The notes under the pieces are model-generated. The model did no database searches and had not been told where the DNA came from. It worked only from the letters and a program-made list of their open reading frames with translations. From Prevotella sp. (GTDB lineage Bacteria; Bacteroidota; Bacteroidia; Bacteroidales; Bacteroidaceae): a DNA stretch of 60,365 bases. Location of the stretch: assembly GCA_017940545.1 (NCBI GenBank), contig JAGAYI010000030.1:1-60365 (forward strand). Direction: 5' to 3'. Of this stretch, positions 12,386 to 48,310 are shown piece by piece; position 1 is the stretch's first letter; each line of letters opens with the position of its first letter. A program made the position numbers and the translations under genes.

Positions 12386-12417
12386 TTTGGTTGTTTCAGA
12401 ATTATTATCTATTTTTG
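12386..12417 (+). promoter_or_regulatory. Promoter of the leader RNA / nuclease-channel operon
   Basis: TTTG at 12386-12389 and TATTTTTG at 12410-12417 lie 20 bases apart. Transcription would start near 12424, leaving a leader of about 300 nt before the nuclease gene. Confidence 0.7.
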
Positions 12418-12535
12418 CAAATGGAATCGGTATATCATCATCATAAATGATGCTTGCTCTTTGTGGCAAGACTCCCTGAGTGCAGGGGCCGGTGCAATTT
12501 TATTAGAAAGAATAGAAGCGTTATGCTCGTCTTGT

Positions 12536-12645
12536 ATCTAGAAACCTGAGAAATTTCCAGTACGGCAAGAGATCATGATAGCTTCCACGCAAGGCGTGGA
12601 AAGTTGTCACTTCTCCCGTACAAGGTTTTCTCAGGACCGCTAGAT
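12536..12645 (+). ncRNA. Structured leader RNA, copy 1
   Basis: Four nested stems are visible: ATCTAG/CTAGAT (12536-12541 with 12640-12645), CCTGAGAAA/TTTCTCAGG (12545-12553 with 12627-12635), GTACGG/CCGTAC (12560-12565 with 12616-12621) and the apical TTCCACGC/GCGTGGAA (12583-12590 with 12594-12601). The unpaired segments GCAAG, ATAG before the apical stem, and AAGG before the closing strands recur in the same places in the RNA at 45873-45990. It lies inside the 5' leader of the nuclease-channel operon. It is not a riboswitch or ribozyme class I recognise, and no reverse transcriptase, IscB or tRNA is nearby. Confidence 0.65.
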
Positions 12646-12731
12646 GAAGATGTGAACATACAGTTCCACGCTTCTCACATTAATAGGATGGTCTTCTGTG
12701 GGACCAGAAGGCTAAGTTAAATTAAAAAACT

Positions 12732-13826
12732 ATGGATTTTAAAGATTCTATTTTACAATTAGCTGAACGTGTTTCATCCCTGAAGGAATCCATCCAAACG
12801 GAAGAGGCCACAAAGAATGCGTTTATCATGCCATTTATTCAGATGCTGGGATATGATGTTTTCAATCCATTGGAGGTAGTTCCTGAAATGGATTGTGATA
12901 TTGCCAAGAAGAAGGGGGAAAAGATAGACTATGCTATCATGAAGGATGGTGCGCCAATTATGTTGATTGAGTGCAAGCATTGGAAGCAGGACTTAAACTT
13001 GCATGACAACCAGTTGAAGCGTTATTACGTTGCCTCCAAAGCAAAATTCGGAGTATTGACGAATGGCATCGTCTATAGATTCTATGCAGACTTAATCAAG
13101 GAGAACATCATGGATGACGTACCCTTCTTAGAGATAAATCTGGAGAAAATCCGAGAGGCACAAATAGAGGAAGTTAAGAAGTTCTGTAAGGAGAACTTTG
13201 ATCTGGACAATATTCTCAGTAGTGCCAACGAGCTTAAGTACATGTCGGAAGTCAAGAAGGTGATACGTTCAGAATTCTCGGAACCATCTCCAGAACTTGT
13301 TAAGTTGCTGACGAAGCGTGTCTATGAAGGCATCGTTACGCAGAAGGTTCTTGATCAGTTTACTGATATTGTACTTCGGGCATTGAAGAGTCATATCAAC
13401 GATGTGATGAGTGAGAAACTCGGAATAGCCATTAAAGCTACAGAAGTTGCGGGTGCTCCTATTCAGACGACTTCGGCTCCGATTGTGCAAAAACAAGAAG
13501 AGGAGATGACGAAAGAAGACGAAAAAGCTTCGAAGATAAACACCACTATGGAAGAGATGGAAGGCTATTACATCGTAAAGAGTATTGTATGCGAGGTAAT
13601 CTCCTCAGAACGAGTTACCTATCGTGACTCTCAATCATACTTTGCAATCTTTGCTGACGATAATAACCGCAGACCCATTTGTCGGTTGCACTTCAACAAC
13701 ACAAACAACAAGCGCATAGGTTTTGTCGATGAGAACAGGAATGAACAGATGGAAACCATAGAGAAGCTGGATGACATTTATAATTTCAAGAAACAGTTGC
13801 TTGAGGCAGCAAAACGATATGTTTAA
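12732..13826 (+). CDS. PD-(D/E)XK nuclease-like protein, HsdR N-terminal type
   Basis: A 364-residue protein whose first 160 residues look like the N-terminal nuclease domain of type I restriction HsdR subunits (COG4748-like). Visible are a helix with TEEATKNAFIMPFIQMLGYD, then D66 (KIDYAIM) and E80-x-K82 (LIECKHW), the PD-D-ExK triad, and a conserved QLKRYY helix. The motor domains of HsdR are absent. The C-terminal third (about 265-364) is a separate domain. The stop codon abuts the ATG of a voltage-gated channel gene, so the two are coexpressed. Lower G+C than the flanking core genes suggests transfer. A defence role is inference. Confidence 0.75.
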   Translation: MDFKDSILQLAERVSSLKESIQTEEATKNAFIMPFIQMLGYDVFNPLEVVPEMDCDIAKKKGEKIDYAIMKDGAPIMLIECKHWKQDLNLHDNQLKRYYVASKAKFGVLTNGIVYRFYADLIKENIMDDVPFLEINLEKIREAQIEEVKKFCKENFDLDNILSSANELKYMSEVKKVIRSEFSEPSPELVKLLTKRVYEGIVTQKVLDQFTDIVLRALKSHINDVMSEKLGIAIKATEVAGAPIQTTSAPIVQKQEEEMTKEDEKASKINTTMEEMEGYYIVKSIVCEVISSERVTYRDSQSYFAIFADDNNRRPICRLHFNNTNNKRIGFVDENRNEQMETIEKLDDIYNFKKQLLEAAKRYV

Positions 13827-36446: not shown

Positions 36447-36635
36447 AAAAAGAGAGGTCGTACCAGTGATGTGATGAAAACTCCTATTTCTAAGATTTGA
36501 GCGCTCGCCCACCGTTGTAATCCACCGGCATTGCTGCTGCCTCGCGGCATGTGGCCCGCCATTGGTGAGAGAAGACATCTCGGTTTTCAATTTAATTTGA
36601 TGAGTATCCCGATCTAACCGATACGACCTTTATCG
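36447..36635 (-). ncRNA. Rod-like stable RNA, 6S-like candidate
   Basis: On the minus strand a TATCTTTG -7 box (36640-36647) precedes an RNA of about 190 nt. It is closed by AGGTCGTA/TACGACCT (36622-36629 with 36455-36462), has an inner TGAAAAC/GTTTTCA stem, and an apical arm CACC-GGC...TGCC-GCGA-GGCA...GCC-GGTG. It ends at a U-run (A's at 36445-36450). Length, closing stem and bulged rod shape fit 6S RNA. The AGCAGC near the GCGA loop recalls SRP RNA, but the matching 5' side is absent. It could alternatively be a long ribE leader. Confidence 0.5.
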
Positions 36636-45775: not shown

Positions 45776-45872
45776 CCGTGTATATAATTAAGGTGTAACT
45801 CTAAAAATAGATATGCCAATGGACAGATAAAGATATAAGGACATAAGACTGGACGTCCACTTTTGATTCTTG

Positions 45873-45990
45873 TCTTTCGATAATTGGGGAATTAAAGAAG
45901 ACTGCAAGGACTGAAGTAGATAGTTCACGCCGCTCGGCGTGGGCATTTACTCGTTTAAGCAGTTAAGGTTATCCCCAATACCTCGAAAGA
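45873..45990 (+). ncRNA. Structured leader RNA, copy 2
   Basis: Nested stems: TCTTTCGA/TCGAAAGA (45873-45880 with 45983-45990), ATTGGGGA/TCCCCAAT (45883-45890 with 45972-45979), ACTGC/GCAGT (45901-45905 with 45959-45963) and the apical CACGCC-gctc-GGCGTG (45926-45941). The stem sequences differ from copy 1 while single-stranded elements are kept: GCAAGG, GATAGTT before CACGC, GCGTGG after it, and AAGGTTA before the outer strands. A CGTAAGC/GCTCACG hairpin followed by T's (about 45990-46018) could be a terminator or attenuator in front of the HIRAN gene. No clear TAnnTTTG promoter was found upstream. Confidence 0.65.
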
Positions 45991-46075
45991 CGTAAGCGAA
46001 GTAAATTGCTCACGTTTTTCATACAAGAATGTACTATATAGTAAAAGGAATCACCAACTTAAAAGCAATATCATT

Positions 46076-47398
46076 ATGTTTATAGAAAAAGTTCATCCAC
46101 ATAAAGCCGACTATCATGGTGATGTACGCACCCTAATTACTGGTTTATCTTTCCAATGCCCTAATGATTGGGAAGCGATTCTTAATTCCTTGGACGAGGA
46201 AAGTGATTTGACCCTTAGAAAAGAGCCAGATAATCCTCATGACAAGTATGCCATAGCTGCTTATCTTGACGATAGGAGAATAGGATATGTTTCCAAGGAT
46301 GACAACTGTTCTATCTATATGTTTGTAGGGGAAGAACCAGTTGCTTGTAAAGTAATAGACAAATACAAAGCTTCATTTAAAATTTCCTTTGAGCATCCTA
46401 AACAGTTTTACGAACAGTTCACACCAGAGCAAATCTTCCAGCTCCAGCCTGATTGCAATTACAAGGGCTATGATAACAAATTGCCTTCATATGAAATTCC
46501 CGTCTTAGATATTGACAACGATCACTACGATTGGTATGAAGATACCATCTTAATGCCAAATATGGAAAAGTGGATTGTTGATTTTAATAGGAAATTCGTT
46601 TCAAACAAAATCGAGTTGGTCTGCCGACAATCACCAGATGGGAAATACTATTATTACCTTCCGTATCTGAACTGGGACATAGCTGAGGTAAGGTCGCAAG
46701 AAATCTGCGAAGAACTTGAAAGATTGGGAATAGGGATCGGCCTTGTAGATGTTGCGACTATTACCTATCAAGATACCATAGTAGCCGATATTAAAGTAGC
46801 TTTGCGCAAGGATTATTCTGGAATATCTGCTATGTCATATTTCAGAATGAAGAGAGAAAACAAAGATTTTAACTTTGTATATGAACTCCCTAAAAAGAAC
46901 AAAGTTCTCTCTATATCAGAAGAAGTGTTTGCCAAATTCATAAATGAGAATATTGGTTGTGACGTTTTAAGTTCGCCTAACTCTTCATGGAAATACGACA
47001 CTACAGATTTTCTTGGCGATGGGGCAGAAGTTTACGAAACCTATATTTTCAAAAAACGTATTTTGGAGAATCCCAAATGCAATGAGATTATAGCCAACGT
47101 CGTTAGGGGTAAAAGCGTGAATTTTAGCCTAGATATTAAAATGAACAAGAAAGAGATTTTCGATTTTGTGTATCGATACAAAAAGCAGTTCATCCCTGAT
47201 TACACATTAGCCAACTGTAAGAAAGAATATGGTAAAGAACAGTTCTCAATCTTCACAGAAGGGATTAGTCCTTCTCTTGATATTAGGTTCCCATTTATGG
47301 GAGATCCGTGCTCTATAACGTTTTACACCTCTTTTTGCAACAAAGCATATATCGATAAGAAAAAATCCCAAAAGAAAATCCTCACTCTTGAAAAGTAA
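46076..47398 (+). CDS. HIRAN-domain protein of unknown function
   Basis: A 440-residue protein. Residues about 18-95 fit the HIRAN domain (LTLRKEPDNPHDKYAI then RRIGYVSKDD), a module that binds single-stranded DNA ends in restarted-fork helicases and occurs alone in bacteria. The remaining 340 residues, AT-rich in coding, are not recognised and hold no helicase motif. It is the first gene behind the copy 2 leader RNA and precedes the retropepsin-like gene by about 90 bases. Confidence 0.65.
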   Translation: MFIEKVHPHKADYHGDVRTLITGLSFQCPNDWEAILNSLDEESDLTLRKEPDNPHDKYAIAAYLDDRRIGYVSKDDNCSIYMFVGEEPVACKVIDKYKASFKISFEHPKQFYEQFTPEQIFQLQPDCNYKGYDNKLPSYEIPVLDIDNDHYDWYEDTILMPNMEKWIVDFNRKFVSNKIELVCRQSPDGKYYYYLPYLNWDIAEVRSQEICEELERLGIGIGLVDVATITYQDTIVADIKVALRKDYSGISAMSYFRMKRENKDFNFVYELPKKNKVLSISEEVFAKFINENIGCDVLSSPNSSWKYDTTDFLGDGAEVYETYIFKKRILENPKCNEIIANVVRGKSVNFSLDIKMNKKEIFDFVYRYKKQFIPDYTLANCKKEYGKEQFSIFTEGISPSLDIRFPFMGDPCSITFYTSFCNKAYIDKKKSQKKILTLEK

Positions 47399-47486: not shown

Positions 47487-47963
47487 ATGGAAGATAATAA
47501 GAAATATATAGCGCATAAAGGTTTTTCTATTGCTGCAACTGCTGAGTTGCCCGTTGGGACAACCTCTATCGAGACACGGCATGAAGTAGCCCCAGGATGG
47601 AACGCGGATAACACCATGTTTGAGCCTTGTGTCTGCTTTTGGGATACAGGAGCTACTTATTGTGGTGTATCAGATGCTTTAGCTGATAAATGGGGATTAG
47701 AGAATCTTGGAGATGTTAAAACGTTCTATGCTAATGATGATTATGAGGTAACACCATCATACGCTATTACTTTGCGGTTTGCAGATGGCTCTAAACACAT
47801 GATCACTGCCTCACGGCAACACATGTCAGGGGTGGATATAACCATAGGTCTATCACTTATATCTGATGGAATCTTCACACTCATGCCAACGGCAAATCAC
47901 GGTTCAATCTTCACTTTTGAAATACCTCAAAACCACAACGACATATATGAGTTTTTAAGATGA
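47487..47963 (+). CDS. Retropepsin-like aspartic protease
   Basis: A 158-residue protein counted from the ATG at 47487 (MEDNKKYIAHKG); a TTG at 47457 in the same frame would add 10 residues but is less likely. FWDTGATYCGVS carries the DTGA catalytic motif (residues 53-56), followed by the strand-rich fold GVDITIGLSLI and ending as a single retropepsin-like domain that would act as a dimer. No signal peptide. Its last four bases overlap the next gene (ATGA). Confidence 0.75.
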   Translation: MEDNKKYIAHKGFSIAATAELPVGTTSIETRHEVAPGWNADNTMFEPCVCFWDTGATYCGVSDALADKWGLENLGDVKTFYANDDYEVTPSYAITLRFADGSKHMITASRQHMSGVDITIGLSLISDGIFTLMPTANHGSIFTFEIPQNHNDIYEFLR

Positions 47964-48310
47964 ATAGAAAAGAACTTATTGAAAAATTGCAGAACATAGA
48001 AAAGGATGTGAAAGAGATTAAGGAATATCTTTCGCAGAATGAGGCAGGATCGGATAAACATGTATATTTTCCATTAGCAGCAGAACTTGACTTCAAATTA
48101 GATTATACGTTAGATGATTTATACAGAGAATTTGGAAGCAAGGTGTCATTAGCACGTCGATTAAAGACGGCTCTCCAAAAACGAAACATCAACACATTGG
48201 AAGAGTTCCTGTCACTTTCTCCTGGCGAACTCTTAGAATTGGAAAATGTTGGCTATGATACATTGCTTCGCACTAAAAAAGCTCTGAGCAAGTTGGGAGT
48301 TGCATGGTGA
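47960..48310 (+). CDS. Small protein with alpha-CTD-like helix-hairpin domain
   Basis: A 116-residue protein: an N-terminal coiled coil (about 1-28, IEKLQNIEKDVKEIKEYL), a linker, and a C-terminal domain (about 75-115, NINTLEEFLSLSPGELLEL then VGYDTLLRTKKAL) like the RNA polymerase alpha C-terminal domain or other HhH folds. It is translationally coupled to the retropepsin-like gene, so it may be its partner, substrate or regulator. Confidence 0.65.
   Translation: MNRKELIEKLQNIEKDVKEIKEYLSQNEAGSDKHVYFPLAAELDFKLDYTLDDLYREFGSKVSLARRLKTALQKRNINTLEEFLSLSPGELLELENVGYDTLLRTKKALSKLGVAW

Follow-up and report, generated by a model that had tools for sequence, protein, structure and literature searches.

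Terminator/antiterminator attenuators, including those of the trp type and the expression platforms of riboswitches, are the known systems most like the RNA element described here. The element resembles them in its overlapping pairings (A:B, B:C and C:D, defined below), in a terminator-like hairpin, U-rich on its 3′ side in most copies, and in its leader position, and differs from them in that no conserved leader peptide was seen by eye in the copies inspected, that the whole 5′ half would act as the antiterminator strand, and that the genes concerned have no function in common. As far as we know, only a small number of Bacteroidota RNA families with a cis-regulatory role have been characterised.

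Flavo-1 (RF01705) and the other Bacteroidota motifs of Weinberg 2010 (PMC2864571), as far as the accessible text of that paper describes them, are likewise structured RNAs of this phylum. According to the accessible part of PMC9723704, Flavo-1 is widespread in Flavobacteriaceae and matches indistinctly the sense or antisense of transcripts, whereas the orientation of the element relative to the gene is fixed. An earlier note on this DNA, made from the sequence alone, had allowed for a match to a known RNA; in Rfam 15, Flavo-1 included, no family matched the element at the gathering score in the DNA analysed, nor at E ≤ 1 in 18 loci. The sole match nearby was DUF805b RNA (RF02914), also a cis-regulatory family, one copy of which (E 1e-8) lies at positions 686–721 of locus L170 (L numbers are our labels for loci), directly behind the copy of the element, 58–93 nt after its core and before the start codon. 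DUF805b is 35 nt long, was present in one of the 12 loci of that scan and is distinct from the rod; similar-looking sequence was seen by eye in L165 and L193.

The palindromic candidate HMP_4078 of Fremin and Bhatt 2021 (PMC8040213) is given in the accessible text as 109 bp long, mostly found in Bacteroidetes and located near D5_N and phage integrase domains. Compared by description only, it is similar to the element in length, near-palindromy and phylum, and its neighbouring mobility genes resemble those of the plasmid copies described below; that text gives no function or second fold for candidates of this type, and they may be the nearest earlier sighting. No description of the element was found in an open-access library or in the accessible parts of PMC7160235, PMC9723704, PMC2864571, PMC8040213 and PMC7366714.

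Two copies in the window

The window, i.e. the whole stretch of 60,365 nucleotides from Prevotella sp. that was analysed, contains two copies of the element, both on the plus strand. The region of copy 1 (12526–12655) folds into one long nested hairpin of −60.2 kcal/mol (z −9.0) and that of copy 2 (45863–46000) into one of −57.1 kcal/mol (z −6.9), with 0 of 200 shuffles as low in either case. The blocks CAAG, CACGC..GCGTGG, AAGGTT and ACC are shared by the two copies in the same order. Their parts and the genes behind them are as follows.

12410..12417, + strand: promoter motif TAnnTTTG (Bacteroidota-type −7) of copy 1, TATTTTTG, 120 nt 5′ of the copy
12515..12528, + strand: P0 of copy 1, a small 5′ hairpin, GAAGCGTTATGCTC; the same block is seen by eye in many copies
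12530..12652, + strand: core of copy 1, rod P1-P2-P3-P4 (state 1); E 3.6e-29 with the covariance model R1, of whose training set copy 1 is a member
12594..12610, + strand: strand B of copy 1 (the apical 3′ strand and what follows), partner of A in state 1 and of C in state 2
12661..12671, + strand: tail arm C of copy 1, CAGTTCCACGC, partner of B (state 2) or of D
12690..12712, + strand: hairpin P5 of copy 1, with loop D TGGGACC (12699–12705) complementary to C; own duplex −11.1 kcal/mol
12732..13826, + strand: first gene 3′ of copy 1, HSDR_N nuclease domain (type I restriction enzymes), 364 aa
13827..14597, + strand: second gene of the same operon, Ion_trans channel-like protein, 256 aa
45868..45996, + strand: core of copy 2, rod P1-P2-P3-P4, AATTGGGG subtype; E 8.4e-24 with R1, copy 2 being a training-set member
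45936..45950, + strand: strand B of copy 2, GGCGTGGGCATTTAC
46003..46014, + strand: tail arm C of copy 2, AAATTGCTCACG
46015..46019, + strand: T-run TTTTT of copy 2, directly 3′ of C in the sequence
46076..47398, + strand: first gene 3′ of copy 2, HIRAN-domain protein, 440 aa

The two hairpins delimited in the earlier note are therefore real, and the element itself is larger, with P0 before the core, tail arm C after it and, in copy 1, P5 with its loop D. Shared blocks in a common order were likewise found; their description in that note as single-stranded is too simple, CAAG(A), GCGTGG and AAGGTT being arms of a second fold. Both operons are AT-rich as claimed, with a GC content of 0.40 (copy 1 operon) and 0.37 (copy 2 operon) compared to 0.50 for the window. 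What had been called a HIRAN-protease operon does encode the HIRAN protein, and no protease family was detected in the three further ORFs scanned. For a small protein of this operon (47960–48310, + strand), the C-terminal domain of RNA polymerase alpha gave a weak match, with an E-value of 2e-4 that stays below the curated cut-off. The window also harbors a Bacteroidales-1 RNA (RF01693, which according to its description may be the 6S RNA of Bacteroidales) at 36450–36628 on the minus strand, with a score of 135 bits.

Family model and distribution

A BLAST search with copy 1 against 100 genomes, its own included, gave matches in five, namely its own genome, three genomes in which the match precedes the same operon and one in which it precedes another gene; one further copy from its own genome turned up as well. 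In a seven-copy alignment, 16 of the 36 predicted pairs had already changed on both sides, and R1 was built from seven copies including copies 1 and 2. With this model nine copies were found at E < 1e-8 in the window's own genome, which is about 70% complete. Copies at E ≤ 1e-3 are present in 149 of the 200 genomes of the genus sample (own genome included; up to 13 copies per genome), and among its more complete genomes in 61 of 85. At the same threshold, R1 copies occur in 123 of 393 genomes and 74 of 206 genera of the order sample, and in 11 of 198 genomes and 7 of 103 genera of the phylum sample, both including the own genome, with all matches in the latter listed as the own class; the conserved blocks are retained in copies from beyond the order. 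The earlier claim of two homologous structured RNAs is thus upheld, as both fold far below their shuffles and a model that includes both finds relatives widely, and the covariance search proposed there did yield more homologues, with compensatory changes among them.

A search with a degenerate DNA pattern that represents the most frequent types of P2 returned at least 119 stretches, and among the matches listed R1 recognised 80 out of 80, the hosts of which include Bacteroides rodentium, B. gallinarum, Pedobacter panaciterrae, Mucilaginibacter kameinonensis, Xylanibacter brevis and Prevotella ruminicola. Seven contigs of a viral collection and seven plasmid stretches are also matched by R1. 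Of the 80 matches listed, a single one, L257 (1636–1763, − strand; R1 E 2e-13), has a title from outside Bacteroidota, its contig being titled Kiritimatiellae MAG. The match itself looked doubtful by eye, and the contig may be mis-binned; since the true group of this contig rests on its title, no spread beyond the phylum is claimed. Another copy from the window's genome, L018 (1501–1679, − strand), has about 50 extra apical bases, which fold as a hairpin of their own. The element is an RNA family that is absent from the RNA family library searched and that stands before many unrelated genes in Bacteroidota.

Conserved pairing of the rod

Pairing was assessed on an alignment of 59 rows, comprising 58 non-redundant copies and the second copy of L052, which was fitted to R1 and so leans towards the R1 structure. 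In this R1-fitted alignment 91.3% of 2087 cells of the rod are paired, compared to 66.3% in shuffles and at most 49.5% when the partners are slid, and in 31 of the 36 modelled pairs both partners have changed, which bears out the earlier proposal of a selected RNA fold. The helices differ strongly in sequence diversity, with 50 distinct 5-mers in the 59 rows for P1 and 56 for P3, both almost all different between copies, and 20 for P2, and the blocks between the helices are conserved. G-T oppositions number 199 against 41 A-C ones and the plus strand folds better in all 59 rows; the element therefore acts as an RNA of that strand.

A second fold and the tail arm

Arm C, which was missing from the earlier note's list of blocks, ends about 20 nt after the core (like CAGTTCCACGC). 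Its core motif lies outside the R1 model and is present after 166 of 179 matches, compared to 11 of 177 at a control distance of +200. The B:C duplex has a mean energy of −17.9 kcal/mol for the copies' own strands and −14.7 kcal/mol for strands swapped between copies, a comparison that leaves the kinship of the copies in (z −10, 0 of 2000 permutations as low, n = 59). With longer arms, one made of B and the adjoining 3′ stretch X and the other of C and the stretch Y that follows P1, the values are −24.4 and −18.6 (z −13.4), and the X:Y extension without the B:C core gives z −7.8, kinship being left in by these swaps too. The 3′ half (B to C) folds by itself into a hairpin with a mean z of −4.3, z ≤ −2 being reached in 53 of 55 copies versus 17 of 59 windows placed 45 nt later, and a small AGGU:ACCU hairpin conserved inside it is paired in 94.6% of cells. 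A:B on the one hand and B:C with its extension on the other are two mutually exclusive conserved pairings.

Two short helices, UCUUG:CAAGA and GAAA:UUUC, are possible in the 5′ half in state 2. Together with AGGU:ACCU they are paired in 89.8% of 743 cells, compared to 87.3% in shuffles, and 24 of the cells are changed on both sides, compared to 7.6 (0 of 500 as high). The support for the state-2 helices of the 5′ half is modest. A stable 5′ hairpin as one half of state 2 was discarded, the first 46 nt folding no better than shuffles (mean z −0.5; one of 55 copies at z ≤ −2).

Forcing B:C costs stability, as the best fold that contains it lies on average 17 kcal/mol above the free fold (state 1). 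Free and forced folds have −59.6 and −33.4 kcal/mol for copy 1 and −61.4 and −39.5 kcal/mol for copy 2, and the two are near equal in a few copies only, such as L083 (−53.1 and −52.3). Because state 1 is energetically so far ahead, state 2 would need help or kinetics to form. The 10 nt after C contain 5.9 T on average, compared to 2.9 nearby; at least six T are found there in 36 of 59 copies versus 7% of background windows, the other 23 copies having fewer. No real U-run follows C in copy 1 (TTCTCACATT); in copy 2 the sequence there is TTTTT.

Many copies possess a hairpin P5 between C and the start codon with a loop D complementary to C, examples of the paired sequences being GGACTC/GAGTCC (L196), GGTTCC/GGAACC (L170) and AAACCC/GGGTTT (L079). 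The C:D duplex averages −9.9 for the copies' own strands and −7.9 for swapped ones, the swap again leaving kinship in (z −7.6, 0 of 2000, n = 56). No P5 with a loop matching C was seen by eye in copy 2.

Position before genes

An ORF of at least 60 codons lies behind 176 of the 179 oriented copies and is on the same strand in 161 of these 176, in agreement with the leader position claimed earlier for the two copies. The same-strand ORF starts at a median of 81 nt 3′ of the core and within 40–140 nt of it in 130 of 161 cases. Copies without a same-strand gene behind them also exist, for instance L011 in the window's own genome. The ORF upstream may be on either strand (90 same, 70 opposite); an integron attC site, judged by gene position, was rejected on these grounds, the element preceding its gene. 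The motif TAnnTTTG, the Bacteroidota-type −7 promoter consensus according to the accessible part of PMC9723704, is found within 220 nt upstream of 143 of 178 copies, compared to 53 of 178 on the other strand, and in 86 of the 143 it is located 60–80 nt before the core. The other 35 copies have no such motif within 220 nt, and copy 2 has none within 260 nt. A leader peptide starting from the ATG in GTTATGCTC was ruled out by eye, as neither the ATG nor the frame is kept across copies.

The 149 downstream proteins belong to 81 Pfam families, the commonest of which, BspA leucine-rich repeats, accounts for 18, and there is thus no shared pathway that would name the ligand of a riboswitch. Exported-looking N-termini, by a simple rule, are enriched among them (83 of 134, compared to 139 of 538 neighbouring ORFs, whose starts were taken as called, unchecked). 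In PADLOC, 60 families match any of the 149 proteins, and the 25 of the 60 that were listed match one protein each. These PADLOC and Pfam tallies do not support control of defence-type genes as a general rule, which had been suggested from the two operons of the window, and speak against an anti-phage defence element with mostly defence genes downstream. In locus L073 (917–1432, − strand) the gene behind a copy encodes a nucleotidyltransferase that belongs to a drug-resistance family (Pfam Aminoglyc_resit, E 2e-25). Locus L052 carries tandem copies (582–708 and 1501–1627, − strand) with one gene between them; the second copy starts 30 nt past the stop codon of that gene and may be the internal leader of an operon.

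Plasmids, viral contigs and mobility

The RNAs of L091 and L097 are 95% identical over 174 nt and have different next genes. In seven genomes, including that of the window, the RNA, the nuclease gene and the channel gene are shared at 76–88% between pairs, the surrounding DNA being unmatched save for short pieces. In the window and six other genomes the shared block has P0 at one edge and the 3′ end of the channel gene at the other; a cassette with exact ends was considered and rejected, in view of a divergence of about 20%, at which the edges may only mark the limit of conservation.

Seven plasmid records carry the RNA. In B. uniformis plasmid pBUN1 it is located directly behind an annotated MobV relaxase gene and before a beta-lactamase gene, and in a Parabacteroides distasonis plasmid it follows a toprim gene and a hypothetical gene and precedes a DUF4433 gene. 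A place between mobility genes and a cargo gene is thus seen in L336 (NZ_AP019725.1; the beta-lactamase gene), L333 (NZ_OY725823.1; the DUF4433 gene) and also L330 (a lipoprotein-like gene); among these three a relaxase is annotated only in L336 and recognised by eye in L330. In the viral-collection contig L324 the RNA precedes the window's nuclease gene, after which comes a second gene unlike that of the window, and another of these contigs, L330, has by eye the look of a mobilizable element; due to this gene content the viral-collection contigs need not be viruses. No match to copy 1 was detected among INPHARED phages.

Mobility genes upstream are not a rule, as 66 upstream proteins have no common family (the largest, AAA ATPases, has 3 of 66, and there are two IS1595-type transposases). 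The earlier suggestion that the RNA is mobile therefore holds for its occurrence in near-identical form before different genes and on plasmids, including the copy next to the MobV relaxase gene, and finds no backing in the proteins encoded just upstream. Judged from these comparisons, the RNA travels, though the upstream proteins share no family.

Proposed mechanism and alternatives

The pairings A:B, B:C and C:D exclude one another in a chain, and in most copies B:C is followed by a U-rich stretch; attenuation is the plain reading of this arrangement. The observed features (the family itself, both folds as conserved pairings, the U-rich stretch, the promoter motif and the gene position) fairly probably make up an mRNA 5′ leader with two mutually exclusive folds, i.e. 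an attenuator-like RNA switch in which the rod would go with read-through and the tail hairpin with termination; termination itself, the direction of control and the signal are what we infer from the sequence. The rod of state 1 (P1, P2, P3 and A:B) would arise by pairing between the 5′ and the 3′ half. In state 2 the 3′ half would fold on itself, B and the following stretch pairing with the stretch after P1 and C, with the AGGU:ACCU hairpin inside, and the U-rich stretch that follows C in most copies would make it resemble an intrinsic terminator. Transcription would stop once state 2 has formed, and would read through into the gene if the 5′ half captures the 3′ half first. Because the free fold is more stable and its parts are made first, read-through is likely the default, and a signal, probably acting on the 5′ half by occupying it, would turn the gene off. 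After read-through, C would pair in many copies with loop D of P5 before the start codon and so be held away from B, as a lock.

The same C:D pairing, which covaries and sits before the start codon, would also suit a 5′UTR element for translation or mRNA stability. The rod and the C:D pseudoknot would then protect the mRNA or control the access of ribosomes, with the U-rich stretch as a linker and no termination taking place. The energetic dominance of state 1 and the lack of a U-run in copy 1 fit this explanation, which we nevertheless hold to be unlikely, as it leaves unexplained the strongly selected hairpin of the 3′ half followed by T-rich sequence, and copy 2 has by eye no P5 loop matching C. 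A promoter motif at a preferred distance together with a terminator-like end could also belong to a free-standing, trans-acting small RNA, its neighbour gene being incidental or co-regulated. This is distinctly improbable, since the RNA is tied to the mRNA both by the same-strand gene within 40–140 nt and by the covarying pairing that reaches into the 5′UTR beyond the U-rich stretch; the position of the second L052 copy, so close to the stop codon of the gene between the two copies, also argues against it.

Processive antitermination proteins such as UpxY and LoaP suggest a further comparison, in which the rod would be the target site of a protein of this kind, or of another RNA-binding protein, and P2 would be read by its sequence. 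The few sequences of P2 compared to P1 and P3 agree with that; against it, the conserved loop blocks are already explained as state-2 arms, and this reading is as improbable as the small RNA. Near-identical RNAs before different genes, and plasmid copies of which one is directly 3′ of a relaxase gene, would further suit an element that acts at the level of DNA, for instance an attC-like, MITE or REP-like hairpin, and that mobilises genes while only resembling an RNA. Against this stand the strong excess of G-T over A-C and the better folding of one strand, the fixed orientation to the gene along with the promoter motif, and the pairings of C and D, which lie beyond the hairpin unit, and we regard it as very improbable indeed. 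The attenuator-like switch thus stays the preferred reading.

Biological significance

The two-fold reading, if true, would explain a pattern that is puzzling at first sight: the "loops" would be kept for their role as helices in the alternative fold, and hypervariability would be confined to stems that serve in a single fold. It is possible, if on balance doubtful, that the element is a plug-in bistable RNA switch common to several orders of Bacteroidota, placed on unrelated and often exported or horizontally acquired genes and answering to one common cellular signal, the private P1 and P3 of each copy letting copies avoid each other or be addressed singly by antisense or trans RNAs. The RNA is common in the genus sample, reaches other orders and precedes genes for surface proteins as well as, in the case of plasmids, cargo genes. 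As both folds are inscribed by covariation, the mechanism is directly testable by mutation, and a common signal would name an undescribed regulon.
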